Part shown: positions 2,556 through 29,306 of the stretch, one piece after another
Numbering within the stretch: the first letter of the stretch is position 1
Layout: each line of letters begins with the position of its first letter
Virus record (IMG/VR): IMGVR_UViG_3300008450_010443
Span: 1 to 31,227 of that record
Strand: one strand, 5' to 3'
DNA: 31,227 bases
From: a virus
The notes under the pieces: model-generated
The model's input: only the letters and a program-made list of their open reading frames with translations
The model's database searches: none
What the model was told of the DNA's origin: nothing
Program-made: the position numbers and the translations under genes

Positions 2556-2557
2556 TT

Positions 2558-2929
2558 ATGCAACTAACAAACAAAACACAAACTGAAAAAAATATCAGCA
2601 ATCTCGAAAAGCGTATTGATAAAGCAACATTAGCATTAGCACAAACCGTTAACGCTCTTAATTCTGCTTATGAATGCGTTTGGACTTTACCTGACGAACA
2701 GTTAAGAGAGCTTTTACAATGTCTCTTTGATAATAATAAGTTGCAAGATATCTTTAATATCCATGCGCAATCTGCGGCTAATATTAATGCACTTCTTGAT
2801 GCAATTAATTATTCTGGAGCAAGAGCTAAAGAGGGTGCTGGTCGTGAATATACTATTACAGATGGAGTTATTAGTGTAACTCCTTTGTTGGAATTAGAAT
2901 CAGTTATAACTATAGAAGATTTTAACTAA
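2558..2929 (+). CDS. Conserved-looking 123-aa protein between fibre genes, function unknown
   Basis: I do not recognise a named family. The N-terminal ~80 residues are predicted helical, with heptad-like spacing in the first 40 (ISNLEKRIDKATLALAQTVNAL). Next comes a WTLPDEQLRELLQ segment. The C-terminus (REYTITDGVISVTPLLELE) is beta-prone. There is no signal peptide or membrane segment. It starts 2 bp after fibre gene 1 and ends 25 bp before fibre gene 2, so it is co-transcribed with both. The position suggests a fibre assembly factor or small structural protein, but that is only context. No Shine-Dalgarno sequence precedes the ATG. Confidence 0.75.
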   Translation: MQLTNKTQTEKNISNLEKRIDKATLALAQTVNALNSAYECVWTLPDEQLRELLQCLFDNNKLQDIFNIHAQSAANINALLDAINYSGARAKEGAGREYTITDGVISVTPLLELESVITIEDFN

Positions 2930-2954
2930 GGTATTTTTTTAATATTTCATTGAT

Positions 2955-4841
2955 ATGAGTAAACAAATTAAGATTAATATTATCCCAGATCAAAGTGTTT
3001 GTATCAACCCAATCACTTCAAGTCAAGGTATTAATATTACGCCAGATCAAAATGTAATTATAAATCCAATTACTTTAAATCAAGGTATTATCAATCATTC
3101 AGTTACTCATCAATCTGGAAGCAGTGATGAATTATTACATAATTTATTAGGAGGATTACAAGGAGGATTTACTAATCAATATTATCATATTTCATCTGGG
3201 CAATATTTTAATTTAACTACTGGTGATGTAGTTCGTCCAAGTGAGACTGGTCAATTTTACCCAATGTCAAATCCATCTGGATTTACGACTGGAGGAGATT
3301 TATCTCTTTACGCCACAAAGTCTTTTGTTACTGGAGTAAGTGGTGTTTTACAAATACAAATAACTAATTTAAATAATCAAACAGGTTCTTATTATCCAAG
3401 AACCAACCCTTCGGGTTATATTACTGGAATTGATTTATCTCCTTATGTTTTAGACTCAGAAACTGGAAATTTTATTACAATTAATGAAACTGGACAATTC
3501 TATTCATCCAGCAATCCAAACGAATATACTTCAATTAGCTATGTTACTGGAGTTAGTGGTGATCTTCAGTCACAAATAATTACTTTGAATGATCAATTAC
3601 CTTCATTTTATCCACGTTCTAATCCTTCTGGTTATATTACTGGAGTAAGTAATGCGGTTTTTACAATTGGGGATCAAAATATTAATGGAACTAAAAATTT
3701 CACCACACGTCCAACAGTTAATTCAATTGGTGTTCTTTTAAGATCTGAAACAGGAATCTTTTTGACTGACAGTGATTTATCTTCAGTAGTATTTACCACG
3801 GGTAGCCAAACAATTAATGGAACTAAAATATTCGCAACTGGTTTAACTATTCAATCAACCTCAAATCAACTTACATTAAGAACAGGAAATGCTGGAAATA
3901 CAATATCCATTACAGCTCCGACAATTAATGCAAACCGCATATATACCCTACCAGACGCAGGTGCTCCTGCATCATTTTTATTAACTGCTGGACAACAAAC
4001 AATTGTAAGTTTAAAAAACTTCACTGTTCGTCCAACTGTTAATGCAATAGGTGTTGCTTTGGTTTCAGAAATTACTAATTTAGTATATACAACTGGTGAT
4101 CAAAAAGTAAGTGGAATAAAAACATTTGGCGAAAATAATAATATCTATAATTCAGCTCATTCTCATATATTAGGTGGTGAAGTAAATATAATTTCTGGAG
4201 TTACTGGTAGTGGTTTAGGTGTGGGGAATGTTACTAGTTATACAGGATGTTTTATTGGCGGTGGAAATAAAAATGATATTATAAGTGCAAATTATTCTAT
4301 CATTGGTGGGGGGCAAAATAATCATATAAGCGGAGTGACTGGAACTGGCACATTAGGTAATATTTTTATTGATAGAGTGTTTTATTCAACTATAGTGGGT
4401 GGGCTTAGAAACGATGTATTTAAAAATTATGGATCTATAGCAGGTGGTCAAGATAACACAATTAGTGGCGATCATTCATTTATTGGTGCTGGAAGATTTA
4501 ATTCTGGTTTTGGTGATTATTCTGTAATAGTAGGTGGAGATAAAAATTTAATTGAATCAAATGTGGATTTTGGATCTATTCTTGGTGGTAGAAGAGCTTT
4601 AATTAATTCAAACCATAATGGAGCTACTATACTTACTGACGGACAAGATAGAGATCATATTTCTAAAGGTTCACATACTTGTTCATTAGATTTTGCTAGT
4701 GGAGTTTATTTAAGACTTCCATCCTTTACTGGTGTTAAAAATCAAACTGGAAATCTTGGTGAATTAAAAGTTAGTGGAGAGTATTTATATATTGCAACTG
4801 GTCAAAATACATGGGGACGTATTCAAATTTCAACATTCTAA
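2955..4841 (+). CDS. Tail fibre protein 2 with shaft repeats and a YadA-like beta-roll region
   Basis: 628 residues. Residues 7-25 and 26-44 are a tandem duplication (INIIPDQS.. / INITPDQN..). Around residue 65 is LLGGLQGGFTNQYYHISSGQ, a motif typical of phage fibres. Residues ~90-240 carry the same shaft module as fibre 1, with three good NPSG copies and one degraded (SNPNEYTS). Residues ~395-560 have repeated SIIGGGQNNxIS-type segments like the left-handed beta-roll of YadA/haemagglutinin heads. The C-terminus has GELKVSGEYLYIATGQNTWG, a recurrent end module of phage fibres. The likely role is a second fibre or receptor-binding subunit. Nucleotide similarity to fibre 1 is high in places (around 670-735 against 3372-3437). 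The start is ATG with no Shine-Dalgarno; a TAATAT lies 9 nt before it. Confidence 0.85.
   Translation: MSKQIKINIIPDQSVCINPITSSQGINITPDQNVIINPITLNQGIINHSVTHQSGSSDELLHNLLGGLQGGFTNQYYHISSGQYFNLTTGDVVRPSETGQFYPMSNPSGFTTGGDLSLYATKSFVTGVSGVLQIQITNLNNQTGSYYPRTNPSGYITGIDLSPYVLDSETGNFITINETGQFYSSSNPNEYTSISYVTGVSGDLQSQIITLNDQLPSFYPRSNPSGYITGVSNAVFTIGDQNINGTKNFTTRPTVNSIGVLLRSETGIFLTDSDLSSVVFTTGSQTINGTKIFATGLTIQSTSNQLTLRTGNAGNTISITAPTINANRIYTLPDAGAPASFLLTAGQQTIVSLKNFTVRPTVNAIGVALVSEITNLVYTTGDQKVSGIKTFGENNNIYNSAHSHILGGEVNIISGVTGSGLGVGNVTSYTGCFIGGGNKNDIISANYSIIGGGQNNHISGVTGTGTLGNIFIDRVFYSTIVGGLRNDVFKNYGSIAGGQDNTISGDHSFIGAGRFNSGFGDYSVIVGGDKNLIESNVDFGSILGGRRALINSNHNGATILTDGQDRDHISKGSHTCSLDFASGVYLRLPSFTGVKNQTGNLGELKVSGEYLYIATGQNTWGRIQISTF
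2973..3086 (+). repeat. Tandem 19-residue duplication at the N-terminus of fibre 2
   Basis: Two adjacent 19-codon units encode INI[IT]PDQ.V.INPIT..QG. The proteins match at most positions while the codons differ, so the duplication is old. Confidence 0.8.
3217..3660 (+). repeat. Shaft repeats of fibre 2, homologous to those of fibre 1
   Basis: Four NPSG-type units, one degenerate, separated by TGxSGxLQxQI segments. The unit around 3372-3437 is almost identical in DNA to that around 670-735 in fibre 1, differing mainly at third positions. Confidence 0.8.
4158..4635 (+). repeat. GG-N-IS beta-roll repeats in fibre 2
   Basis: Successive units such as CFIGGGNKNDIIS, SIIGGGQNNHIS, TIVGGLRNDV, SIAGGQDNTIS, SFIGAGRFN, SVIVGGDKN and SILGGRRAL. 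The spacing resembles left-handed parallel beta-roll heads of trimeric adhesins. Two units carry insertions (VTGSGLGVGN, VTGTGTLGN). Confidence 0.75.
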
Positions 4842-8018: not shown

Positions 8019-10577
8019 TTATTTAATTTCTGAAAGCTTCATGTAAATCTTCTCTTCAAGTAAAGAAAGTTTTTCAGCAAAAACAATATCTCTATTCTTC
8101 TTTCCAGAGATGATTACAATTGAATCCTTCTTAGGTAAGACCTTACCAGAGTTAAGATAATTTGTCAATCTACCTTCTCGTTCTGAGTCCATTAATAGGA
8201 CGGTTAACTTGCCAAGATCATCAAAAATATCCATTCTAGCATACTTATTGCCATTAGCACTAGTTCTTGTCATAATATCAGATACAGTACCAACAAATCT
8301 AACTGTTTGGTTTTCTTCAAGGTTTGATATTTCGTTAGAAGAAACTAAACTACCCTCGATCTCATTTCTAAAGACCTCTCTTACATTATGAGAATAACTA
8401 TAGCCTAATAATTTAGTTTCAAAGAACCAATTGGCAAATTTTAAATGCTTATGATTTTTTTCATAAATATCCTTATAGGGTTGATACTTTGTTTTAAATG
8501 TATTAAATCTTTTATCAGAGAAGATTCTTTTATTATCGTCTCCAACTAACTGATCCTTTGAGCAGTCAGCAATAGTTTTTAATATATCATAATTATATTT
8601 ATCACCAAGAGTGACAATATTTCGCTTTTCCCTATCAGTGAGTATGTTGAATGTTTGAGCTTCTAACACTAATCTACAGCGATCCTTAGACACAAAGGAA
8701 TCAAGCACCCCTGCTTGAATAAGTGCTGATAAAACACCAATATTTAAACTCGCTTGTTTAGCCGCAAGAAATACTTCATACTTATTAGAAAAGCTTTGTT
8801 CTCTAAATTCAAGCAATGACTCAAGAACTTTTGTTGAAACTCCTTTGATTGAATTAAGACCATATCTGATATTTTCTCCTTCAATTTTAAAATCAATATC
8901 TGATTTAGCCAAATCTGGTGGCAAAAGTTTAATATTAAAATATGGTAACTCTTGAACTATTTTATTAATTTCTTCATGTGGATTAGGTTCGTATTGAGCA
9001 TACTTTAATAAGCTTAAAAAGAATTGTTGAGGATAATTAAATTTAAGATAAACGGTAATCGCCGCTAGGTAAGCATATGAAATACTGTGAGATTTATTAA
9101 AAGAGTAATTAGCCGAATCTTCAGCAACTTTCCAAAGAACGTCTCCAACAACTGGATCAAGATTATTTTCTTTAATTTTATCTTCAATCTTTTGCTTCCA
9201 AGCGCCCATTTGATCGACCTTTTTCTTGCCAACAATACGTCTAAGCTGTTCTGATTCATCAAGACTAAAACCAACCTTTACGACCATTTTCATCAACTGC
9301 TCTTGATAAAGAGGAATACCGCCAGTATAGCTTAATACATCATCAAAGAAAGGGTGTACAGATTGAAACTGACCATTTCTAGCATAATCTGCATATCTAT
9401 CCATGAAGTCTAAAGCCCCAGGTCTTGCAATAGCTACAACAGCAGATAGCTGTTCAAGATTTTTAGGAGAGATTTTTTGACATACTCTAAAGTTAGTATC
9501 AGCTTCAATTTGGAATAAACCCTGTGGGGCTTGTAGTGTTTGAAGTGCGGCATAAATTGATTCATGATCGCAATCAATATCATTTACTTTAATGCCAAGA
9601 CGAGAGCATACATCATGAATCACAGAAAGAGTACGAAGACCAAGGATATCGAACTTAACCGTCAATTCTGCCACATTATTCATATCATAACCAGAAACCA
9701 CAGCATCTTCACCAGTATTTTGAATTGGCATGATTTCATCTAATTCATAAAAGCTAATTGCGATGCCAGATGGATGAACTCCAGTATTTTTAGCTAGACC
9801 TTCAATTTTTTTAGCAATACGATAGATTTTTTTATTTTTATTAGCAAATGATTTAAAAGTTTCACTTTCTGAATATGCCTGTTCAAGCTTAAATACTTTA
9901 CCGAATTTTTTAGGTATGCTATCGCTGATTTCATTCACAGCTGATTCAGACATTTCACCAACAATTTTACCACACTCTTTAATGCAAAGTTTACTGCTAA
10001 GAGTGTTCAATGTAAGAATTTTTGAAGTTCTCCCTTGATACTTACGGTTAATATAATCAATAACTTCTTGGCGGCGATCATAACTAATATCATTATCAAC
10101 ATCGGCCAAAAGAGAACCATCAAGAAAGACTTCTCCATTATGTTCAATTTTTCTAGCACGACTTTTTGAGACAAAGCGTTCGAAGAATAAGTCATACTTA
10201 ATCGGATCAATATTTGTTACCCCAACGACATATAAAACTAAAGATCCTGCGGCAGAACCACGTCCAGCACCAGTTGGAATACCTGTTTCATGACAAAAAT
10301 TTAAAATATCCCAATTTAATAAAATATAATCAATAAATCCAAGTTCATCAAGAACAGAAAGTTCCATTGATAGTCTATCATAATAGACTTGTTTGTTGGG
10401 TAGTTGATCAATTTTCTTTTCTTGAACCCCTTTAAAACAGAGCTTTCTTAAAAAGTTAAAATTACTTGTATCTGGAGAACATCCCAAAACATCATAATGC
10501 TTTTTTTCAATATGAATTTTTGGGAGCTTAACTCCAACTGGGCATGGTGTTTTATAAGGTTCAATTAGATTGCTCAT
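8019..10577 (-). CDS. dnaE: DNA polymerase III alpha (C-family) core lacking the PHP domain
   Basis: 852 residues. It starts just upstream of the C-family palm. GAGRGSAAGSLV (103-114) matches the nucleotide-binding motif. DVDNDIS (159-165) matches the DFDVDF active site, giving catalytic D161 and D163. VKFDILGLRTL supplies the third aspartate (D310). FNKSHSISYAY (493-503) is the conserved fingers motif. RYGLNSIKGV (571-580) is helix-hairpin-helix DNA binding, and residues ~757-800 form an OB fold. Bacterial DnaE proteins are about 1,100-1,200 residues; the N-terminal PHP domain is missing here and lies in a separate gene at 11181-11942. There is a ~14-residue insertion before the active-site aspartates. 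It overlaps the exonuclease gene by ATGA, implying coupled translation. It is the replicative polymerase of the phage; no clear clamp-binding peptide was seen. Confidence 0.95.
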   Translation of the reverse strand: MSNLIEPYKTPCPVGVKLPKIHIEKKHYDVLGCSPDTSNFNFLRKLCFKGVQEKKIDQLPNKQVYYDRLSMELSVLDELGFIDYILLNWDILNFCHETGIPTGAGRGSAAGSLVLYVVGVTNIDPIKYDLFFERFVSKSRARKIEHNGEVFLDGSLLADVDNDISYDRRQEVIDYINRKYQGRTSKILTLNTLSSKLCIKECGKIVGEMSESAVNEISDSIPKKFGKVFKLEQAYSESETFKSFANKNKKIYRIAKKIEGLAKNTGVHPSGIAISFYELDEIMPIQNTGEDAVVSGYDMNNVAELTVKFDILGLRTLSVIHDVCSRLGIKVNDIDCDHESIYAALQTLQAPQGLFQIEADTNFRVCQKISPKNLEQLSAVVAIARPGALDFMDRYADYARNGQFQSVHPFFDDVLSYTGGIPLYQEQLMKMVVKVGFSLDESEQLRRIVGKKKVDQMGAWKQKIEDKIKENNLDPVVGDVLWKVAEDSANYSFNKSHSISYAYLAAITVYLKFNYPQQFFLSLLKYAQYEPNPHEEINKIVQELPYFNIKLLPPDLAKSDIDFKIEGENIRYGLNSIKGVSTKVLESLLEFREQSFSNKYEVFLAAKQASLNIGVLSALIQAGVLDSFVSKDRCRLVLEAQTFNILTDREKRNIVTLGDKYNYDILKTIADCSKDQLVGDDNKRIFSDKRFNTFKTKYQPYKDIYEKNHKHLKFANWFFETKLLGYSYSHNVREVFRNEIEGSLVSSNEISNLEENQTVRFVGTVSDIMTRTSANGNKYARMDIFDDLGKLTVLLMDSEREGRLTNYLNSGKVLPKKDSIVIISGKKNRDIVFAEKLSLLEEKIYMKLSEIK

Positions 10578-11206
10578 ATCTCAATGTCGTAAATTTGTTT
10601 TTGGAAGATTTGGAAGTTCATTTCAATATCATAAAGTGCATCGTGAAGCCTCTTAGGATCATGAGGAATATTATAATGCTTTAGCAAAGTACCTTGTGAT
10701 GTTTTAAGACCTTTTTCCTTATGATTTAAAAGTTTGTATTGCCATGAAACTGGGTTTTGATCATCATGAAGAATATTTTTAAATATTGCTGTAGCTAAGG
10801 ATTTTGTATCAATGATTCTATCAACATAAGAATAATCACTTTTCAGACCAATCAATTTTCTCCAAATATTAATCATATAAACATCAAATCCAAGAAGATT
10901 CTGTCCAATAATTAAGTATTCTGGATCATAAAGATACTTAGAGAAATCGTTCCAAATTTTCTTTGGATCTTCAGCGCGATCTTCATAGATTCTTTCAGAG
11001 AATCCTGTTATTTTGGCTGCACCTTCAGATACTTGCAAATTATCCCATTTGATAAATCTATCATTTTTTGATTTGATATTTTTACCCTCAGCAGTAATCC
11101 AAGCAATTTGCCAAGGTCTTGAATTTATGAGATTCAAGCCTTCTGTTTCAGTATCAAAAATCAGATACTTTTGCTTGTGTTTAAATCGTAGTAAGTTTTC
11201 CTTCAT
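10574..11206 (-). CDS. DnaQ-type 3'-5' proofreading exonuclease (DEDDh)
   Basis: DEDDh exonuclease. From the longest frame (TTG at 11245, 223 residues) the motifs are FDTETEG (Exo I, D31 and E33), IGQNLLGFD (Exo II, D121) and RLHDALYDIE (Exo III, H201 and D206). The start is uncertain: TTG at 11245, ATG at 11236 or ATG at 11206. I chose 11206 because it leaves 17 residues before Exo I and the least overlap (26 nt) with the PHP gene. It sits between the PHP-domain gene and the polymerase gene, and its stop overlaps the polymerase start by ATGA. Its job is proofreading for the C-family polymerase. The order PHP, exonuclease, polymerase recalls PolC, where an exonuclease domain is inserted in the PHP region. 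Confidence 0.92.
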   Translation of the reverse strand: MKENLLRFKHKQKYLIFDTETEGLNLINSRPWQIAWITAEGKNIKSKNDRFIKWDNLQVSEGAAKITGFSERIYEDRAEDPKKIWNDFSKYLYDPEYLIIGQNLLGFDVYMINIWRKLIGLKSDYSYVDRIIDTKSLATAIFKNILHDDQNPVSWQYKLLNHKEKGLKTSQGTLLKHYNIPHDPKRLHDALYDIEMNFQIFQKQIYDIEI

Positions 11207-11942
11207 ATTCTTTAAATGATTCCCAACAAAATTCATCACTACCAAAATGATTTAAATTTGGAGATGATAATGTAGCCTGTCTACCAAACGAACGATTGCA
11301 AAGAATTTTATAAGTTTGCAACGCTTCAACATCACACTTATCCTTATAATAGATAGATTTTACAAGTCTAGTCTGATATTTATTACCATTGTCTGTAAAG
11401 GATAAAATTGCTTTTTCTATAACATGATCAAATGGTAAACTATTTCTTTCAATAAAGAAAATGGGTTTAATAGAACCAAAGTCTGGAATACAATTACCAA
11501 GCTGTAATTGATTATTAAATATAAAGGAATCGTAAAATGGTATTGCTAACAATAAGTTCTCGGTCCATAGATTTTGTAAATTTTCAGCATCAATTCTTCC
11601 ACCGAAACGAGTATTAATTGCACTGTAAAACTTATTTAAATCTTTACAACCATCATCATTTTTTGCAAACGCAATTAACTTGTGACAAGAGTCATTGTTT
11701 TCAAAACAATTACAACAAGTAAATCTATATCCAAAAACTAATTGTAGATTATTGCTCACGCATTTTTTAAATGCTTCAAGAAAACCCACCATAGAGTCTT
11801 CAACCAACACAACTTGTTTAAGATTATTTTCTAACGCAATAGAAAAAATACTATCTGCACCATCATCTTTTTGATCAATTGGATCATCTAAAGTAAGAAT
11901 ACTTTTACCAATTGAAAAAGTAGATTTAAAAAGTGGTATCAT
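11181..11942 (-). CDS. Stand-alone, degenerate PHP domain of DNA polymerase III alpha
   Basis: 253 residues that align by eye with the N-terminal PHP domain of DnaE. ALENNLKQVVLVEDSMVGFLEAF (36-58) matches the AxxLGMPALAITDxxNLxGxxxF region. HKLIAFAKNDDGCKDLNKF matches THLxVLAxNxxGYxNLxxL. TRLVKSIYYKDKCDVEALQTYK matches VVATNDVHF...DAHE. SPNLNHFGSDEFCWESF matches the YMRSEEEM segment that ends the PHP domain. The metal ligands are gone: HxH near the start is replaced by FKSTFS, and TDH by VED. It is therefore probably a structural, catalytically dead PHP that packs against the separate polymerase. It heads the operon of exonuclease, polymerase and Clp, with a strong promoter ending 7 nt before its ATG. 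Confidence 0.82.
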   Translation of the reverse strand: MIPLFKSTFSIGKSILTLDDPIDQKDDGADSIFSIALENNLKQVVLVEDSMVGFLEAFKKCVSNNLQLVFGYRFTCCNCFENNDSCHKLIAFAKNDDGCKDLNKFYSAINTRFGGRIDAENLQNLWTENLLLAIPFYDSFIFNNQLQLGNCIPDFGSIKPIFFIERNSLPFDHVIEKAILSFTDNGNKYQTRLVKSIYYKDKCDVEALQTYKILCNRSFGRQATLSSPNLNHFGSDEFCWESFKEYEGKLTTI

Positions 11943-17397: not shown

Positions 17398-17734
17398 TTA
17401 AAAATTGTTTAATTGTTATTTGTTTCTTTCCTACTTGGGAATCCTCTCCCACCTTATCTCCAAGATTATACCTTTCATATCGAGAATAGTCAATCTTAAA
17501 ATTAAAAGCTCTAAACTTTTGATCTAGCGTATCTTTCAACTTATCGCTAACTAAATAAGCTAAGGAGTCTAATTTTTTGTCAAATGTTAAGACGTTCATA
17601 AACTCTAATGAATATCTTTCGCATAAAATATTTAAAAAATTCATTTCACGCATATAAAATAAACGCTTATCCTTGATTGGGATAAGCGTCAGTTTGGCAA
17701 GAATATCTTTTTTATTAATCTTAGACTTGGCCAT
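17390..17734 (-). CDS. Basic 114-aa protein heading the recA operon, function unknown
   Basis: No family recognised. It is basic at the N-terminus (MAKSKINKKDILAKL), helical through the middle, with a basic/aromatic FRAFNFKIDYSRYERYNLGDK stretch near residues 75-98. The frame could extend to an ATG at 17749 (119 aa), but the ATG at 17734 is preferred because a consensus promoter places the transcription start at about that codon. The start lies 14 bp inside the end of the gmd gene. It overlaps recA by 8 bp, so it is probably a recombination accessory protein; that is context only. Confidence 0.72.
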   Translation of the reverse strand: MAKSKINKKDILAKLTLIPIKDKRLFYMREMNFLNILCERYSLEFMNVLTFDKKLDSLAYLVSDKLKDTLDQKFRAFNFKIDYSRYERYNLGDKVGEDSQVGKKQITIKQFLNE

Positions 17735-18845
17735 GCTCAAGTATATCATGTCTGATCATTTTGTCAACAAGTTCTTTAAAAGATGTTTTTGGTTTCCATC
17801 CAAGTTCTTCACGCGCTTTTGTGGAGTCACCTAAGAGAAGGTCAACTTCTGCAGGTCGATAGAATTGAGTATTAATACTGACAAGAATATTTTTTGTTTT
17901 ATTGTCTATATATTTTTCTTCTAGTCCAAGACCTTCCCAATGACCATCTATTCCTGCTGCTGAAAATGCCAATTCAACAAATTCTCTAATTGTATGGGTC
18001 TCATTTGATGATAAGACATAATCTTTTGGTTCGTTTTGATTAAGCATTAACCAAATTCCTTCAACAAAGTCTTCTGCGTCACTCCAATCTCTTTTTGCAT
18101 CTACATTACCTAGTTCTAAAGCGTCAAATGATTCATTATTATAAATGGCTTTTTGAATTCTAGCGACATTAGTAGTTATTTTTCTAGTTACAAACTCAAC
18201 ACCACGCCTTGTTCCTTCATGATTAAACAACCAACCTTGTACCGCATATAATCCATAAGACTCCTTCCACACCTTGAGAATTTGTCTCGCTGCGGCTTTA
18301 GATGCACCATATGGGCTTCTTGGGCGTAATGGATGATTTTCATCCTGTGGCACTGTAACAACATCACCGAACTCTTCAGAAGAACCAGCTTGATAAAAAC
18401 GACAAGTTGAATGATAATTACGAATTGCTTCCAGAATATTTAAAACAGATGTAGCGTTTGTTTCCCATGTTTGTTGAGCGAAGTCCCAGCTACTACCAAC
18501 AAAGCTTTGGGCTGCTAAATTAATAAAATAATCTGGTTTTAGTTTTTCAATTATTCTAGAAATAGAATGACAGTCAGTAAGATCAAAATTAATTAGATGA
18601 AATCTATGATCTTTAATATGCGAAAGATTTTTATGGTTATAAACACTTAATCTACGAACACATCCAAAAATTTCATAGTCAGTATTAGCTAAAAGAAAAT
18701 CAACCATATGGCTACCATCTTGACCAGTAACGCCAGTGACAATTATTGTTTTTTTTCCGTTGGCAATTTTTGCTGCATCTTCAATATTTAATATATTCAT
18801 ATGATCTATTTTTTTACCTATATATTTATCTTGTAAATTTTTCAT
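17721..18845 (-). CDS. gmd: GDP-mannose 4,6-dehydratase
   Basis: 374 residues, an extended short-chain dehydrogenase. The NAD(P)-binding motif is GVTGQDG (38-44). GSSEEFGD (154-161) and the YxxxK pair Y179/K183 (YGASK) form the active site. LFNHEGTRRG and RDWSDAEDFVEG are GMD signatures. It converts GDP-D-mannose to GDP-4-keto-6-deoxy-D-mannose, the branch point to GDP-fucose, GDP-rhamnose and GDP-perosamine. No reductase, epimerase or aminotransferase for the next step is in the window, so the host or another phage region must finish the sugar. The N-terminus is ~30 residues longer than usual; an internal ATG at 18800 is an alternative start. It is the last gene of the glycan cassette. Confidence 0.93.
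   Translation of the reverse strand: MKNLQDKYIGKKIDHMNILNIEDAAKIANGKKTIIVTGVTGQDGSHMVDFLLANTDYEIFGCVRRLSVYNHKNLSHIKDHRFHLINFDLTDCHSISRIIEKLKPDYFINLAAQSFVGSSWDFAQQTWETNATSVLNILEAIRNYHSTCRFYQAGSSEEFGDVVTVPQDENHPLRPRSPYGASKAAARQILKVWKESYGLYAVQGWLFNHEGTRRGVEFVTRKITTNVARIQKAIYNNESFDALELGNVDAKRDWSDAEDFVEGIWLMLNQNEPKDYVLSSNETHTIREFVELAFSAAGIDGHWEGLGLEEKYIDNKTKNILVSINTQFYRPAEVDLLLGDSTKAREELGWKPKTSFKELVDKMIRHDILEHGQV
17740..17767 (-). promoter_or_regulatory. Sigma70-type promoter for the recA operon, predicted leaderless
   Basis: On the minus strand: TTGACA (17762-17767), 16-bp spacer, TATACT (17740-17745), 5 nt, then ATG at 17734. The A of the ATG is the sixth base after the -10, a normal start position. 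It lies inside the 3' end of gmd. Confidence 0.75.
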
Positions 18846-18862
18846 TTTAATTTAGTAGTTAA

Positions 18863-19441
18863 TTAAATTTTATTAAAAATTAATTTAGGATGTCCATCAT
18901 CAGTTAAAATATTTTTCAAAACATATCCTTTATTTTTTAAAAATGTTTCATGTTTTTCAATTTCTTCTTCATAAGAAATATTTAAAAAATTATAATGGCA
19001 TTCAATTTCTATGTTAGAAAAACTAGTTTTATCAAAATCAATACCATTGATAATCTCAAACTCATACCCTTCAGCGTCTAAAAATAAATGTTCAACTAAC
19101 GATATGTCTAGTTCGTTTAAAATAGATTGCAATGTTCTAGCTTGAACTGTAATTGAGTTTGGAAAACTTTCCGATTCTGGTTTCACTATAGAATTCATTG
19201 CTGAGTAAATTTGATGAACTCCCATTGTAATTTCATTGCCGATGAAATCATTAGAAACTAAAGCGCAATTATACACTTTACATAAATCATTGCCTCTTGA
19301 CCATAAACAATGTTGAAATGTATCTGGACTTGGTTCAATTAAAATACCAAAATATTCTGGATTATCTTTAAACTGAAGAGAACGAGATTGAAAATAACCA
19401 TCGTGAGCGCCAGCTTCTATATAAATTTTTTTGTTTTTCAT
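18863..19441 (-). CDS. FkbM-family SAM-dependent methyltransferase
   Basis: 192 residues. IYIEAGAHDG (6-15) is the SAM-binding motif I of FkbM proteins. GILIEPSPDTF (32-42) holds the acidic residue at the end of strand 2. HLFLDAEGYEFEIINGI (118-134) is the FkbM DxEGxE signature. Family members O-methylate sugars or other small acceptors. Here it probably caps a sugar hydroxyl made by the cassette. No signal peptide or membrane segment was seen. It lies 1 bp after the GT15-like gene and 17 bp before gmd. Confidence 0.88.
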   Translation of the reverse strand: MKNKKIYIEAGAHDGYFQSRSLQFKDNPEYFGILIEPSPDTFQHCLWSRGNDLCKVYNCALVSNDFIGNEITMGVHQIYSAMNSIVKPESESFPNSITVQARTLQSILNELDISLVEHLFLDAEGYEFEIINGIDFDKTSFSNIEIECHYNFLNISYEEEIEKHETFLKNKGYVLKNILTDDGHPKLIFNKI

Positions 19442-19442
19442 A

Positions 19443-20267
19443 TTAATATGTATTTATTATTTCTCTATTATGATAAATCTCTCCATGCTGATAAACAATA
19501 TCTTTAAAAAATAAAAATTTGTCTTTTGATTCTAATGAGTTTAGAGCTATATATCTTATTATGTGGTCTCCCCATCTATGCATATATATTCCTCCTGTTG
19601 CATCTAAATAATTATAAAAAGATTGATATTCATTTGATTTAAACCATTGTAAATCTAAAATTTCAAAATTTGTATAAAAAACTCTTCTATAATGAAAATC
19701 TTTAGTTTCGTCAAAAATTTTACTTTTGTTTATTTTTCTAAAATATTTTTCAGATATTTCCCATAAATCTTTAATTACAGCAGGGTGATCGTGCTGTATA
19801 TTAATATAACCATATATGGCTTTATTTCTATTCATTTCATGGAAAACATTAGATTCGATTTCGCTTAGAATTTTAGAATCTGTGTCTAATCTCCAAATAT
19901 ATTTATAATTATTTAAAATTGACTGATCAAAAATATCTCCAGCAAAAAATCTACACATATGCCTATATCCAATTGGGAACCCAACATTATTAGGGTCTTG
20001 TGGGTGAGGAAAATATTCTGGTATTTTTTTTATTATTTCTTCTTCATAATTTGGTATTTTAAAATCAATCTCTTGAAAAATTAAATTAATTTCATATAAG
20101 TTTTTTAAATATTCTAATTCGTTTATAGGAAAGTTTTTTTCATGAAAACAAATTACATCACAAGGATGATTTTTTAGATAAAATTTTACTAATCCACTTA
20201 AAGAGGATTTAAAATCATTCTTATCCTCTTCTGAATCATTTAATAGATAAACAACTGCTCCTTTCAT
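19443..20267 (-). CDS. GT15-like (Kre2/Mnt1-type) alpha-mannosyltransferase homologue
   Basis: 274 residues from the chosen ATG at 20267, which forms an ATGA overlap with the gene before; an ATG at 20276 is also in frame. Motifs (277-aa numbering) follow fungal GT15 in order: YRHMCRFFAG (104-113), YIWRLDTDS (126-134), IYGY (154-157), NFEI (203-206, with the conserved Glu), YLDATGGIYMHRWGD (223-237) and a final FFKDIVYQH. GT15 enzymes transfer mannose from GDP-mannose. There is no transmembrane anchor, unlike the Golgi enzymes, so it should act in the cytoplasm. The neighbouring gmd also uses GDP-mannose. The substrate and linkage here are unknown. Confidence 0.82.
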   Translation of the reverse strand: MKGAVVYLLNDSEEDKNDFKSSLSGLVKFYLKNHPCDVICFHEKNFPINELEYLKNLYEINLIFQEIDFKIPNYEEEIIKKIPEYFPHPQDPNNVGFPIGYRHMCRFFAGDIFDQSILNNYKYIWRLDTDSKILSEIESNVFHEMNRNKAIYGYINIQHDHPAVIKDLWEISEKYFRKINKSKIFDETKDFHYRRVFYTNFEILDLQWFKSNEYQSFYNYLDATGGIYMHRWGDHIIRYIALNSLESKDKFLFFKDIVYQHGEIYHNREIINTY

Positions 20268-20884
20268 AATATCCATCCAATTTGATATCCCTCAAAATAT
20301 TTTTCAGCGCCAATGTCTTCCATAAATTTATTTACATATTGAGATTTGCCTATTTTTCCATTTGTAAAAAACGCATCATGATCATCAATAACAATAAGAG
20401 TTCCTTTGTTTAATTTACTAATTAATGCACAAAGCTCTTTTAAATGATGTAACTGTGATGGTATTGGATTGTCAATTTCAACATCAAAAGAATCTAAGTA
20501 AACAAAATCTATGTTTTCATTAATATTTAAATTCCATAAAAATTTAACAGAATCACTAGTAGTTATTTCTGTTTTTTTGGAAACCATTTTCCTAGCGTGT
20601 CCACAGCTGTCTTCAGATATATCTACAGATAAAACTTGGCCATCATAATAATTAATAAACTTATCAAATAAATATGTACTACAACCATCGTCGCCAAAAC
20701 ATAATTTTCCAAATGATGCTCTCATACATCCAGTTTCAATTATAGTATAAAATTCTTTATTTTTTGATTCAAGAAATTCAAAAATTTTCAAGAACGAATC
20801 CGCTCTATTTCTTATTGGATTACCGAAATTAGGTGTTAGTAATTTATTATAATACCTTTCTTTAAATATTTGAGAAAATTTCAT
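20264..20884 (-). CDS. Class I SAM-dependent methyltransferase
   Basis: 206 residues. IIETGCMRASFG (48-59) is motif I. VLSVDIS (84-90) ends with the ribose-binding acid. FVYLDSFDVE (127-136) and LIVIDDHD (163-170) match the O-methyltransferase/TylF-like layout, with metal-type acidic residues. Its position between fucosyltransferase-like and mannosyltransferase-like genes points to sugar methylation. It overlaps both neighbours by ATGA, so translation is coupled. Exact acceptor unknown. Confidence 0.82.
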   Translation of the reverse strand: MKFSQIFKERYYNKLLTPNFGNPIRNRADSFLKIFEFLESKNKEFYTIIETGCMRASFGKLCFGDDGCSTYLFDKFINYYDGQVLSVDISEDSCGHARKMVSKKTEITTSDSVKFLWNLNINENIDFVYLDSFDVEIDNPIPSQLHHLKELCALISKLNKGTLIVIDDHDAFFTNGKIGKSQYVNKFMEDIGAEKYFEGYQIGWIL

Positions 20885-21747
20885 ATGATATTAGAGTTTG
20901 AAAAAAATGGTTGTGTTGGAAAGCTGAAATTATAATTTGTATTTTTTAACATATACTTATCTGGTTGATATATAACAAGTTTATTATAAGCTGACGCTGA
21001 TGAACAAAATGATGAATTTGATGATATTATATTTTTACTAAAAAACAAACATAACCAATCTATATAAAACTCATTATTAATATATAAAAAATTTAAATTT
21101 GGAAACTTTTGTTTTAAAAAGTTTAAATTTTCAATAAAAGATTGATCTTCTGTGAAAATGTTTACATTTTTAATCCAAGGATAGTTTATTATCATATTTT
21201 CTAAACATTCAATATAATATTTTAAATTAAGCCTAATGTCTCCAGCTAATTTAGCATAATAATGTTGAAAATCTGTACCTCTATAATGCATAGAAATAGA
21301 ATCATTTTCAAATAAATTACCATATTTATTGTAAATATAATTTTTTATATCTTCTTTAATAATCAATTTATCAAATATTTTTTTTGTTGGATAAAGCGGA
21401 CAATTATAAAACCAACCACTTAAAATTGAATTAGTGGGAAAATTTATAGAGTTGTTGTATAACAAGTTAATAGAATTTATTAAATTTGATTCATCTTGCG
21501 CTTTATAGGTATTTAGATCATCGCTAAATGATTCTGAAAAAATACTTACAATATCGTTTGGTATTGATTGCTTATATTTTTTTAAATCAAATACTTTATC
21601 AAGATTTGAATCGATTGGTATTTTTAAATTTAAATTTTGTTTTTCGCTTAAATTTAAACAAAACATTAAATGCAGCATGTGGTTTCCAAATGAAGCATTT
21701 GGCCCGTTTGCTGACAAAAAATTAGGATTAAGAAATATATTCTTCAT
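20881..21747 (-). CDS. Fucosyltransferase-like glycosyltransferase (GT11/GT23-like)
   Basis: 288 residues. ASFGNHMLHLMFCLNLSEK (18-36) matches the N-terminal LGNQLFQYAxxxxLA element. SMHYRGTDF (152-160) matches the HxRRGD donor-binding motif. NVNIFTEDQSFI (195-206) matches the IFSDD segment, and DWLCLFFSKNIISSNSSFCSSAS (from 230) matches the D..LMS.C...IxANSSFSWWA motif. These features define the alpha-1,2/1,6 and O-fucosyltransferase-like superfamily, whose donor is GDP-fucose. GMD in the same cassette makes the precursor of that donor. No membrane anchor. It overlaps both neighbours by ATGA. Confidence 0.82.
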   Translation of the reverse strand: MKNIFLNPNFLSANGPNASFGNHMLHLMFCLNLSEKQNLNLKIPIDSNLDKVFDLKKYKQSIPNDIVSIFSESFSDDLNTYKAQDESNLINSINLLYNNSINFPTNSILSGWFYNCPLYPTKKIFDKLIIKEDIKNYIYNKYGNLFENDSISMHYRGTDFQHYYAKLAGDIRLNLKYYIECLENMIINYPWIKNVNIFTEDQSFIENLNFLKQKFPNLNFLYINNEFYIDWLCLFFSKNIISSNSSFCSSASAYNKLVIYQPDKYMLKNTNYNFSFPTQPFFSNSNII

Positions 21748-23216
21748 ATCATGTTTAAAATTTTATTGCATACAGAATCTAAATTAAAATAGTTATTGCA
21801 TACATATCTACCAGATTCAATCATTTTATTATATTTTTCATCAGAAATACTATTTAATAATATTTCTAAGTTATCAATATCATTTTCTCTTATTAAGATA
21901 CAAAAATCACTCCAATTAATTTCATCACTAAATGGTGTTAAAAACTCATCTGATATATAAACTGGAACTGATCCAAGTTGAAGTATTTCATAAAATCTAA
22001 ATGACGATCTTATGTTCCCTCTTGGAGCTAATGAGAATTTTGATTTTTTTGTAATTTCTATAAAGTTTTTTAATTCGTTTTCTGATATTAATGGGGTCCA
22101 GTTTTTAATAGAAAAAATAAAATTATTATTATTTTTAAATAGATTATAAACTTTATGTCTAATGGGGTGAGTCATTGATCCAACAAAAGAACATAAAATG
22201 TTTTTGTTTTCAATATTATTTTCAACACTTAATGGAGTCGTTATTAATGGAATGGGAATAATTTTACCATTTCCATTTTCACTACAAGAAAAAACTAATG
22301 TATCTTCTGGTAGGTTATATTTAACTCCATCGTCGTGTTGAATAACTGTAAAATATTTTTTATCTTTTGGCAAAGAGTCTAGAATAGATTGAATATCAAT
22401 TTGGTAATTATCATTATACAATGTTGTCCAAAAAGCTGGAATATACTGTCTCTCTTTTAGATTAAAACTTTGAATATTTTTATTAAAAAATTTAAAAAAT
22501 GAATGTTCTATATAATCTTCTATATTGCTATACGGTGGATATGTTGGGTACTTTGGTGGATATGGGATTAGTAATTTTTTTTTATTGTTTAAAAAATTAA
22601 ATACAGAAGTCATAAGATCTGTTTTATCTTTTAAATTTGCTGTAAAATTAGCATGGAATATTTTTATGTCAGAGGGAATATTAAAAGACTCTTGTTGTGA
22701 GTACATTTTGTTTTCCATTCCAATTGTGTATGTTTTATAATCAAATAATCCCCATTTTAATAATGAGAAATCTTGACTATTTAGTAATGAGTTGGCGCAA
22801 TATTGATCATCAACATGAAAATCAAGATTAACTAATAATTCATTAAAAAATTTAATTGTTATATCGTTTTTAATACATGCAAAAAATCCCATACACACCC
22901 CAGAAGAATCCCATTGAAATAAAATATCTTTATCTATGAGTGAATCTCTTATATAGTTTTCTATATCTGAACATATTAGAATATCACAATCTGAATGAAT
23001 CATAACTTCTCCATTATCACACTGATTTAAGCTATCAATAATATATTGTATTTTATTAACCATAGAGTCTTTCCACCCATTGGAATGGTAGTCTCCAGAA
23101 CATTTTTGCGTTATCTTTCTAACAATTAAATCTAAATTACAATTTTCAAAAAAAGATTTTAAAAAAAGATCTAATAAGTGTTTGTGTGAATCGCTATAAA
23201 ATGTAAAAATTTTCAT
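21744..23216 (-). CDS. Two-domain glycosyltransferase: GT77-like N-half fused to exostosin (GT47) C-half
   Basis: 490 residues. The N-terminal domain (1-~215) looks like a GT-A nucleotide-sugar transferase of the GT77/DUF273-like type: MIHSDCDILI carries D76-x-D78, and VDDQYCANSLL (135-145) is the later acidic motif. The C-terminal domain (~255-490) is exostosin-like: FVGSMTHPIRHKV (344-356), KSKFSLAPRG (391-400), SFRFYEILQLGSVPVYISDE (405-424) and PFSDEINW. Two catalytic domains suggest two successive sugar additions. A lysine/proline-rich linker (KKKLLIPYPPKYPTYPPYS) joins them. GT47 and GT77 are best known from animals and plants. No signal or membrane segment. No promoter is evident at its start, so it probably rides on the promoter upstream of the GT2 gene. 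Confidence 0.8.
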   Translation of the reverse strand: MKIFTFYSDSHKHLLDLFLKSFFENCNLDLIVRKITQKCSGDYHSNGWKDSMVNKIQYIIDSLNQCDNGEVMIHSDCDILICSDIENYIRDSLIDKDILFQWDSSGVCMGFFACIKNDITIKFFNELLVNLDFHVDDQYCANSLLNSQDFSLLKWGLFDYKTYTIGMENKMYSQQESFNIPSDIKIFHANFTANLKDKTDLMTSVFNFLNNKKKLLIPYPPKYPTYPPYSNIEDYIEHSFFKFFNKNIQSFNLKERQYIPAFWTTLYNDNYQIDIQSILDSLPKDKKYFTVIQHDDGVKYNLPEDTLVFSCSENGNGKIIPIPLITTPLSVENNIENKNILCSFVGSMTHPIRHKVYNLFKNNNNFIFSIKNWTPLISENELKNFIEITKKSKFSLAPRGNIRSSFRFYEILQLGSVPVYISDEFLTPFSDEINWSDFCILIRENDIDNLEILLNSISDEKYNKMIESGRYVCNNYFNLDSVCNKILNMI

Positions 23217-23237
23217 GTATGTTTATATTTAAATTTT

Positions 23238-23954
23238 TTAAAAATTTGTATTGAGATATTTTGATTTTATTTTTAATACTTCATCTATAGCTTTTTGTAA
23301 AGTATCTTTATTGCTAGATACGCCAAGAGGGTTTCTATAATATAAACCAGAAGTAATATCCATTCTGCTTAATTTACCACCGCCTTTTAGAACTCGAAAC
23401 CACATATCATAATCAGCTGCAGAAAAATAAGAGGTATCAAACAATCCAAATCTATCATGAATAGATTTTCTCCACATGGGGAGACAATGTGGTGAATTAT
23501 GAGTTAACTGATTTTCTAATGTTCCATCTAATGCTGGATAAACTTCTTTATATTGACAAAATTCAAAAAATTCATTTTCTTTGTGAGTTACAATTGTTTG
23601 GCCATAACAAACATCAGAATCTAAATTTGATTCTAAAAACTCAACTTGTTTCTGTAATGAGTTGTATGATCTCCTATCATCAGTATTCCAATTTGTTAAT
23701 AGATCTGATGTAGATAACTCCACTCCTTTATTCCAAGCTTCATAAACAGAACAGTTACCAATATTGATATATCTAATATTCTTAAAAGATAAATATGGTT
23801 CTATTGATGATATTTCATTATCTGGAGACCCAGCATCTAATAATAAAAATTCACATTCATGAAAAATTGACTGCCTTTTAATGTCCTGCAGAAAATGATC
23901 AATAAACTTACCAGCTTTAAATATTGAAACAATAACTGATACTCTGTACTTCAT
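23238..23954 (-). CDS. Family 2 glycosyltransferase
   Basis: 238 residues. VSVIVSIFKAGKFIDHFLQDIKRQ (5-28) is the GT2 entry strand-helix. LLLDAGSPDNE (37-47) is the expected donor segment. NTDDR (90-94) holds the DxD-like metal site, and AADYDMWFRV (179-188) holds the catalytic-base region. Soluble and single-domain. First gene of the glycan cassette, with a promoter 11 nt upstream of its ATG. It probably adds one sugar of a short glycan; donor and acceptor cannot be told. Confidence 0.88.
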   Translation of the reverse strand: MKYRVSVIVSIFKAGKFIDHFLQDIKRQSIFHECEFLLLDAGSPDNEISSIEPYLSFKNIRYINIGNCSVYEAWNKGVELSTSDLLTNWNTDDRRSYNSLQKQVEFLESNLDSDVCYGQTIVTHKENEFFEFCQYKEVYPALDGTLENQLTHNSPHCLPMWRKSIHDRFGLFDTSYFSAADYDMWFRVLKGGGKLSRMDITSGLYYRNPLGVSSNKDTLQKAIDEVLKIKSKYLNTNF

Positions 23955-23965
23955 GCTAATGCATG

Positions 23966-23994
23966 ATTATACTATCAAAGCTCTTCTTCTTCAA
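23966..23994 (-). promoter_or_regulatory. Sigma70-type promoter for the glycan cassette
   Basis: On the minus strand: TTGAAG (23989-23994), 17-bp spacer, TATAAT (23966-23971), 11 nt, then ATG at 23954. The predicted leader is ~6 nt. The -35 and most of the spacer lie inside the end of the upstream 327-aa gene. Confidence 0.7.
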
Positions 23995-24958
23995 GAAAAT
24001 CTTCAACATTTTCAAGATCTGGGTTTTCTGTAAAAATTTGATCTTGATCAATGAATGTAGAATCATCCCATCCCCAATCTAATCCATCATCATCACTTAA
24101 TAAAAGCTCTTCAGCAGATGCCATTGATGAAACAGGTTTAGCTGACCAGAATTTACAGCTCCAATAACGAGCTTTCCATTTAGGACCAACATTAGTGTCA
24201 CACTGATGACGCGCTCTAAAACTCTTTCTACGCTCTGGATCATCACGACGAATTTCCATATTTGGATCGCCAAACTTAACCATTACGGTATTACCTTTAT
24301 CGTTTTTTACATAGACACCAAATTTTTTATTTGATCCACTAGGTAATCTAAATGGTTTATTGAGAGTCTTTTTTTCGGCTTCTGAATAATCAATATCATC
24401 TAATTCAATATTACCTTCTTCTTCAATATCAACACCTGCCTTAACTAAATCAATACGAGCTAAATCAAAATCAATTGAATCGAATTCCCAAAAACAGTCT
24501 TCTGGTTTTCGCTCATAATAAAGTTCCTCACCTCTAGCAACATCTTGATCAGCAGCGCGATAGGAGTCTTTAACTTTACCACCTTTTTGCATTTTTAAAA
24601 ACATATTAACTCTAGCCATTGCCCAACTGTTTCTAGTTTGGCCAGGTCTGTGAGAAACAGAAAATGCACCAAGTCCACGACGATAAACTTTTTTAAGCTG
24701 TTCTAATGTAACTTTTTTATCGTATTTTTCATTATGATCGCTAACTTTTTGTTTTAAAGAGTTAATTACTTTTTCAGTAAAAGTAATTTTTGAATCAGAG
24801 TCTGAAGAGGCTGAATCTGGTTTATTTTTATCAGAACCCTTTCTTTGCTCAGATGGTTTGGATGGAGTTTGCGCTCCGCTTTTTGGTCCAGATCTAGATG
24901 CAGCATCTGACTCAATACCAAAAAAACTCTTTAATTTTGATGAAAAATCAACTTCCAT
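23975..24958 (-). CDS. Probable virion-associated protein with two conserved phage domains, function unknown
   Basis: 327 residues from the ATG at 24958; the frame runs on to a TTG at 24976, but the ATG fits better. The first ~60 residues are short, Ser/Lys/Pro-rich and disordered. Residues ~60-140 contain TLEQLKKVYRRGLGAFSVSHRPG and WAMARVNMFLK, a domain I recognise from many uncharacterised phage proteins. Residues ~205-275 contain FGVYVKNDKGNTVMVKFGDP, then RARHQC and GPKWKARYWSCKFW, another recurrent phage segment with two conserved cysteines. The C-terminus is very acidic (DLENVEDFLEEEEL). A role in head assembly or scaffolding is plausible but unproven. TAATAT lies 7 nt before the ATG without a clear -35. 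Confidence 0.75.
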   Translation of the reverse strand: MEVDFSSKLKSFFGIESDAASRSGPKSGAQTPSKPSEQRKGSDKNKPDSASSDSDSKITFTEKVINSLKQKVSDHNEKYDKKVTLEQLKKVYRRGLGAFSVSHRPGQTRNSWAMARVNMFLKMQKGGKVKDSYRAADQDVARGEELYYERKPEDCFWEFDSIDFDLARIDLVKAGVDIEEEGNIELDDIDYSEAEKKTLNKPFRLPSGSNKKFGVYVKNDKGNTVMVKFGDPNMEIRRDDPERRKSFRARHQCDTNVGPKWKARYWSCKFWSAKPVSSMASAEELLLSDDDGLDWGWDDSTFIDQDQIFTENPDLENVEDFLEEEEL

Positions 24959-25002
24959 TATATTAATATTACACAATTTTTTAAAAAAAATCTATATTTT
25001 TA

Positions 25003-28229: not shown

Positions 28230-28719
28230 AGTAAATACATTAAGTACTATAAGGTATCCAGCAAATGAAACTGATTCTGGTTATGACATTATAGCTGCAT
28301 CAGATCCTTTCATTCAGGGGATCGCTATAGATAAAACAGATGATTATCTTGCAATTGATTATATTGAGTATGATACTAATTTAGTTATTGAACCACAGGA
28401 TGGTTACTATACTTGTGTTTTTCCAAGATCCTCAATATCAAAATATAACCTTACCTTGGCAAATTCAATAGGCTTGATTGATAATGGATATAGAGGTGCG
28501 ATCAAGCTAAGGTTTAAATATAACGCACAACCAATTGATTATAAAATGCATGATAATGGTAAATTATCAATCTCTCTTAACAAAAATAAGATTTACAAAA
28601 AGGGAGATAAAATTGGGCAACTTGTTTTTGCAAAAATATTCAACCCCACAATTGAAGTTGTAGAATCATTTGAATCAACAGATAGAAATAATGGAGGCTT
28701 TGGAAGCACAGGTCAATGA
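28216..28719 (+). CDS. dut: dUTP pyrophosphatase (trimeric dUTPase)
   Basis: 167 residues with all five dUTPase motifs: ETDSGYD (18-24), PRSSISKYNL (70-79), NSIGLIDNGYRG (83-94, with catalytic D89 and Y92), KGDKIGQLV (129-137) and the C-terminal arm RNNGGFGSTG (157-166). It hydrolyses dUTP to dUMP and PPi, keeping uracil out of phage DNA and feeding dTMP synthesis. An insertion of about 20 residues (32-53) precedes motif 2. It overlaps the kinase gene by ATGA. No Shine-Dalgarno is seen. Confidence 0.95.
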   Translation: MTTVKVNTLSTIRYPANETDSGYDIIAASDPFIQGIAIDKTDDYLAIDYIEYDTNLVIEPQDGYYTCVFPRSSISKYNLTLANSIGLIDNGYRGAIKLRFKYNAQPIDYKMHDNGKLSISLNKNKIYKKGDKIGQLVFAKIFNPTIEVVESFESTDRNNGGFGSTGQ

Positions 28720-29306
28720 CTACAATAATTGGAATTTCTGGGCCAGCAAGAAGCGGCAAAGACACTTTATGTAATCAATTTCTTGAGATTTTTCAAGAGA
28801 TGGGTATAAAGGCTAAAAGGTCAGCTCTAGCAGATCAATTAAAGTTAGAATCGAAAGATTTTATATTTAATACTCTTGGTATCGATGTTTTTACTGAAAA
28901 AACTGAAGAGAAAAATATAATTAGGCCGTTTTTAGTTACGTGGGGTACACATGTTAGAAGAAAGCTTGATCCAGATATCTGGATTAAGAAAATTCAAGAA
29001 TCAATTGAAGAGAACTCTGTTTTAATTGTTCCTGATATAAGATTTAAAAATGAATTTGATTGGGTTAAAAATAATAACGGATACATGTTTTTTATAGATC
29101 GTATTAATGAAGATGGTGAACTCGTCCCAGACGCAAATCAAGATGAAGCTGAAAACAATACATTTTTAAGAGAAAACTCCGACCATTCATTTGTATGGAC
29201 TACAACTGATGATAAAAAAATATTAATTTCTGTTGCTTTTGAAATTATTTCTAATACAATTAGTGAAGAACAACTTTCGCTATGGAAACAGACTTACTCC
29301 TTATAA
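28716..29306 (+). CDS. Deoxynucleoside monophosphate kinase (T4 gp1-like)
   Basis: 196 residues. The P-loop GPARSGKD (9-16) opens the protein. TWGTHVRRKLDPDIWIKK (75-92) and VPDIRFKNEFDWV (105-117) are characteristic of phage dNMP kinases of the T4 gene 1 type. It phosphorylates dNMPs to dNDPs, linking salvage of host DNA and dUTPase products to dNTP supply. ATGA overlap with dut and 25-bp overlap with the sigma-like gene show one translational unit. Confidence 0.88.
   Translation: MTTIIGISGPARSGKDTLCNQFLEIFQEMGIKAKRSALADQLKLESKDFIFNTLGIDVFTEKTEEKNIIRPFLVTWGTHVRRKLDPDIWIKKIQESIEENSVLIVPDIRFKNEFDWVKNNNGYMFFIDRINEDGELVPDANQDEAENNTFLRENSDHSFVWTTTDDKKILISVAFEIISNTISEEQLSLWKQTYSL

Follow-up and report, generated by a model that had tools for sequence, protein, structure and literature searches.

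The minus-strand open reading frame (ORF) at 19443–20276 of a 31,227-nucleotide viral DNA (the whole of IMG/VR record IMGVR_UViG_3300008450_010443, hereafter the window) raises the question of how a phage comes to encode a relative of fungal mannosyltransferases, and what such an enzyme would do during infection. Among 153 surveyed genomes, the domain of this family, PF01793 (Glyco_transf_15), was found in fungi only (PMC5225481). No description of a phage or bacterial GT15 protein was found in the open-access literature, and a prokaryotic or viral branch of the family is apparently undescribed. An earlier note on this DNA had recognized the gene as a GT15 homologue from the order and wording of its motifs, all of which are found in the ORF (the last reads FFKDIVYQH).

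The ORF encodes a GT15 glycosyltransferase. PF01793 matches the protein far beyond chance (E = 3.7e-34, 119 bits; cut-off 25) and is the sole Pfam family to do so at E values up to 1. All 36 aligned viral homologues likewise match this Pfam family alone. No family in PHROGs or NCBIfam was matched by the GT15 protein, and tblastn with three different GT15 proteins gave no match in the ~50,700 phage records of INPHARED; in these collections, phage GT15 genes are thus without useful annotation. Against the PDB, phmmer matched only three solved GT15 enzymes (ScKtr4p, 1.2e-24; Kre2p, 3.2e-23). An AlphaFold2 model built from an alignment of 36 viral sequences (mean pLDDT 93.8, pTM 0.91) has a GT-A fold by computation, and its top 11 fold matches in the PDB are all chains of Ktr4p or Kre2p/Mnt1p from S. 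cerevisiae or of CmsA/Ktr4 from A. fumigatus (E values 7e-22 to 1.4e-20, TMq 0.78–0.85). They are separated by 11 orders of magnitude from the next fold family, xyloside xylosyltransferase 1 (1e-9). The best fold match in BFVD, a library of viral structures, is the Megaviridae environmental protein A0A5J6VLB3 (E 3.2e-17, TMq 0.75), and phage proteins match at 5e-10 or weaker; the Megaviridae protein differs from that of the window in its size (536 aa), its origin in a giant virus of eukaryotes and its identity of 23%, and was left out of the tree described below. The profile search and the structural comparison with Kre2 that the earlier note had proposed as checks therefore both uphold the homology, and no better match to an unrelated GT-A family was found.

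The second in-frame ATG of the ORF, at 20267, overlaps the stop codon of the upstream methyltransferase gene within a 4-nt ATGA, and the N-terminus that it yields (MKGAVVYLL) resembles that of relatives (MKNAIVYLL). For both reasons 20267, the start adopted in the earlier note, is the likelier one. The GT15 start of a sister phage (L002) has the same ATGA arrangement. Scores from a promoter and terminator scan barely exceed those of shuffled sequence.

The structure of the Ktr4p–GDP–Mn complex (PMC4546622) allows the donor and metal contacts to be mapped onto the window protein by alignment, with conservation scored over 90 non-identical viral sequences. The metal-ligand acid (Ktr4p Glu262, window D131), the metal-ligand histidine (His411, H264) and a beta-phosphate tyrosine (Tyr235, Y104) are each found in 90 of 90, and the acid at the guanine N1 position (Asp173, window E46) is D or E in all 90. 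Met238 (M107) is invariant across the same set, the aspartate of RWGD (D237) occurs in 90/90 and the glutamate of NFE (E205) in 80/90. Thus, the active-site residues of GT15 are present (D131, H264, E205, D237 and Y104), and the replacement of Glu by Asp as metal ligand is a conservative one. The fungal EPx metal motif is replaced by D-x-D in 90/90 viral sequences (DTDS in the window; DxDS is the motif of the branch). Conservation of the acid and histidine at the metal, of the tyrosine and of the acid at the guanine site supports an Mn-dependent GDP-sugar transferase. Conversely, the second beta-phosphate tyrosine (Tyr229) and Asn172, which contacts guanine, are not conserved and correspond to V and H in the window; donor preference could therefore have changed.

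Fungal GT15 enzymes and the window protein share the Mn-ligand histidine, the beta-phosphate tyrosine, NFE(I/L), RWGD and the order of the motifs, in addition to PF01793 and the fold. However, the window protein is only 25–29% identical to them and shorter, and it would work in the cytosol of a phage-infected cell rather than in the Golgi. Fungal Kre2/Mnt1 (KTR) proteins are type II membrane proteins with an anchor and a stem, whereas the window protein has neither: its catalytic domain begins at residue 6 and no membrane segment was found (highest 19-residue hydropathy 0.67), as expected from its earlier description as soluble and anchor-free. Fungal KTR proteins are further characterized by three disulfides conserved in their C-terminal subdomain; the window protein is predicted to be cytosolic. 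Lacking the anchor and the EPx motif, and not grouping with fungi, the window protein belongs to GT15 at the family level and lies outside the KTR subfamily.

The contig carrying the gene is a phage, as indicated by its genes for a DnaE-type polymerase, DnaB helicase, UvsX and NrdA/NrdB-like proteins (the last assigned from their sequences), and by synteny with the 140-kb contig of its nearest relative, L002, which encodes a terminase large subunit. A primase gene is also present. L002 keeps the order NrdB, NrdA, DUF5824, GT2, GT47, a 288-aa protein, methyltransferase, GT15, GMD (GDP-mannose 4,6-dehydratase), p119, UvsX, endonuclease, DnaB and primase, and the outline NrdB-NrdA-DUF5824-GT2-...-GT15-...-GMD-p119-UvsX-endonuclease-DnaB recurs in L006. 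A terminase was matched in 7 of 47 GT15-bearing records, and such records fall on both sides of the main viral split in the tree. The INPHARED matches of terminase and DnaB are ~20–25% identical and belong to phages of scattered hosts. A search for capsid proteins of nucleocytoplasmic large DNA viruses (NCLDV) gave no match in any record, the controls likewise being without a match. The replicase of the window is seemingly split into a PHP/N-terminal-like piece (11181–11942), a DnaQ-like exonuclease (10574–11245) and a polymerase core (8019–10577), and L002 keeps the first two in the same order. In another GT15-bearing record (G014:C1:16609-18729; the record holds L017 and is partly in L149), a thymidylate synthase match lies in three pieces with stops and a ~1.2 kb gap, as if an intron or insertion interrupts it.

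The GT15 gene is surrounded by GMD, GT2, GT47 and methyltransferase genes (Table 1), in agreement with its earlier placement in a phage glycan cassette.

Table 1. Genes of the glycan cassette, in window coordinates
Feature	Position	Strand	Remarks
GDP-mannose 4,6-dehydratase (GMD) homologue	17721..18845	-	PF16363 2e-114; TIGR01472 gmd 368.6 bits, under the equivalog cut-off of 415
FkbM-family methyltransferase, between GMD and GT15	18863..19441	-	PF05050 1e-13; TIGR01444 over cut-off
GT15-family glycosyltransferase	19443..20276	-	277 aa; 274 aa from start 20267
Class I SAM-methyltransferase-like protein	20264..20884	-	phrog_24975 3.5e-50; PF13847/PF13578 weak, below cut-off
Unclassified protein with HYRGTDF motif	20881..21747	-	Fucosyltransferase-like by eye only; no family match
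Glycosyltransferase with C-terminal exostosin GT47 domain	21744..23216	-	PF03016 1.1e-19
GT2 glycosyltransferase	23238..23954	-	PF00535 4.8e-14; GT15 neighbour also in L003, L004, L006

The GMD gene is near GT15 but does not adjoin it as had been stated, since the FkbM methyltransferase gene intervenes; that gene is missing from the corresponding position in L002. The class I methyltransferase-like neighbour recurs within 6 kb of divergent viral GT15 genes (L002, L007, L010, L016, L058 and L072). Its homologues in Prochlorococcus phage P-TIM68 (50% identical) and Synechococcus phage S-EIVl (36%) are annotated as hypothetical. For the protein with the HYRGTDF motif, an AlphaFold2 model intended for comparison with fucosyltransferases was uninformative (pLDDT 41) and was discarded. 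From FkbM to GT2 the GC content is 0.22–0.29, compared with 0.31–0.34 for the replication and Nrd genes. It is 0.34 in GMD and in DUF5824 (window 17721–24976), so the history of GMD may differ from that of the other cassette genes. The gene content of the cassette differs among related phages, as for an exchangeable glycan module.

These features suggest an account whose donor, linkage, acceptor and biological role we infer as follows. The GT15 protein would be a soluble, cytosolic GT-A enzyme of a viral/bacterial sub-branch that is the sister group of fungal Kre2/Mnt1 or, at the least, distinct from it. It would bind a GDP-sugar through E46 (guanine), Y104 (beta-phosphate) and an Mn2+ ion coordinated by H264 and by D131 and/or D133. 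As a retaining enzyme it would extend a glycan by mannose, or by a 6-deoxyhexose that the GMD of the cassette helps to make. The GT2, GT47 and methyltransferase proteins encoded in this low-GC cassette would work alongside it, and the glycan would be built in the cytosol of the infected cell on virion proteins (tail fibre or capsid), where it would mask or tune the particle surface. We regard this account as a whole as probable, with modest confidence. No protein of the cassette has a transmembrane segment and no flippase or polymerase gene was seen there, which makes cytosolic glycosylation of virion proteins the likeliest role. A functional model, likened by function and not by homology, is the glycosylation of mycobacteriophage virions, for which phage-encoded glycosyltransferases are described as building capsid and tail-protein glycans (Freeman et al. 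2023, as cited in PMC12619734). The window also encodes two long fibre-like proteins (33–4841; BppL_N matches) with repeats such as TGxFYPxSNPSGYITG, which are possible acceptors of the cassette glycan.

GDP-mannose is a plausible donor, and the fungal members of the family use it. GMD converts GDP-mannose, and the donor may therefore be another GDP-sugar; if the enzyme used a GMD-derived GDP-6-deoxyhexose in place of GDP-mannose, it would not be a mannosyltransferase. Of the 47 GT15-bearing viral records, 16 encode a GMD-type dehydratase scoring >310 bits (a raw count, without a large-phage baseline), a recurrence that ties GT15 to GDP-mannose metabolism and fits either GDP-mannose or a derived 6-deoxyhexose, and some donor-contacting residues differ from the fungal ones. 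However, about two thirds of the records have no strong GMD (many are fragments), and no enzyme completing a GDP-fucose or rhamnose pathway, such as the reductase, was identified in the window. Exclusive use of a 6-deoxyhexose donor is thus possible, although we lean against it.

The main rival to glycosylation of virion proteins concerns the acceptor: the cassette could modify the host surface (LPS or capsule), for instance in receptor change or superinfection exclusion, with GT15 adding a sugar there. Loci for surface polysaccharides often include GMD and FkbM methyltransferase genes. Three GT15 genes of Verrucomicrobiota are chromosomal, one of them beside a kdsA-like gene (Kdo-8-phosphate synthase), one beside TruB and an acyltransferase and the third in a polysaccharide locus with flippase-like, GT11, GT17 and pyruvyl-transferase-like genes; the first and third of these settings favour a surface role. 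By contrast, the phage cassette shows neither membrane segments nor a flippase, polymerase, O-acetylase or integrase, and the phage looks large and virulent, a less usual setting for serotype conversion. A host-surface role is therefore rather unlikely.

Glycosylation of hypermodified bases in the phage DNA is less likely again. Phage glycosyltransferases can act on DNA, according to work cited in PMC12619734, and the window holds a dNMP-kinase-like gene (28716–29306, assigned by eye). However, no gene of the thymidylate synthase (ThyA)/hydroxymethylase family was found in 27 of 28 searched GT15-bearing records (contigs of up to 226 kb; controls were detected), and a multi-step cassette with GMD, GT47 and methyltransferases suits a heteroglycan better. 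We therefore consider a DNA target very unlikely, and virion proteins remain the preferred acceptor.

The origin of the gene depends on where its relatives occur. Alignment-based scans of IMG/VR found GT15 relatives at 61 loci in a first round and on 121 contigs in a second; a single-sequence scan found none, and neither did a scan of viral contigs with a fungal-only alignment, for which the patterns chosen were narrow. Five loci (L032, L035, L038, L041 and L047) carry two diverged GT15 genes ~1–8 kb apart, which suggests that the gene was duplicated repeatedly or that a single glycan contains several linkages. A bacterial profile search confined to Verrucomicrobiota found GT15 in 1 of 388 sampled genomes of the phylum and in 3 of 162 of one order. 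The three Verrucomicrobiota proteins (L141/L144, L142/L145 and L143/L146) match PF01793 at 73–96 bits and have DxDS; they are ~33% identical to the window protein and, unlike it, have bacterial neighbours. A further candidate, L063 (JAIYDP010000042.1, 1-10301, from a 'Verrucomicrobiaceae' metagenome-assembled genome), was rejected as a eukaryotic contaminant because its exons are split by GT..AG introns and it has a PHD-finger-like ORF. It represents contamination of a species-representative genome, and its GT15 fragment points to the presence of GT15 in a pond eukaryote. Together, the 121 viral contigs and three bacterial chromosomes bear out the suggestion of an overlooked prokaryotic and viral GT15 branch.

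The earlier note had also suggested cross-domain transfer and called for a tree of fungal, algal, giant-virus and phage members. The maximum-likelihood tree comprises 68 rows (62 viral, 3 bacterial and 3 fungal; no other eukaryotes and no outgroup) and includes some long branches (L059, L129 and L131). A branch with 100/100 support splits the three fungal rows from all viral and bacterial ones. The window pairs with L002 (100/98), the two are joined next by L003, L004 and L006 (99/91), and all five lie inside a 28-row set (99/95) that also holds the three bacteria. A grouping of the viral rows without bacteria is rejected (p-AU 0.015), which suggests exchange between phages and bacteria. A single clade of the window's group and the fungi is likewise rejected (p-AU 0.008). 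An ancient transfer may have occurred in either direction, as far as a tree with only three fungal sequences and no outgroup can indicate. One such scenario, in which GT15 is primarily prokaryotic and viral and the fungal Golgi mannan enzymes descend from an ancestral phage/bacterial pool by one ancient transfer, appears doubtful. The cross-domain suggestion fails in its recent form: the idea that the phage lineage recently acquired a fungal Kre2/Mnt1 gene by horizontal transfer would fit the clear resemblance to fungal GT15 in sequence and fold and the survey that placed PF01793 in fungi only, but it is highly improbable given the many other phages and the few bacteria that carry GT15, an identity of 73% to the protein of another phage against the far lower fungal values, the position of the fungi in the tree and the DxDS motif of viral proteins in place of EPx.

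A family treated in the open-access literature as one of the fungal cell wall thus has a soluble branch in phages and bacteria, present on more than 100 viral contigs. This branch provides compact, membrane-free GT15 enzymes with which to study the mechanism of a family for which crystallography of the donor complex with bound mannose has not succeeded, and GT15 can serve as a marker for phage glycan cassettes. It also offers a way to test the origin of the fungal mannan enzymes.
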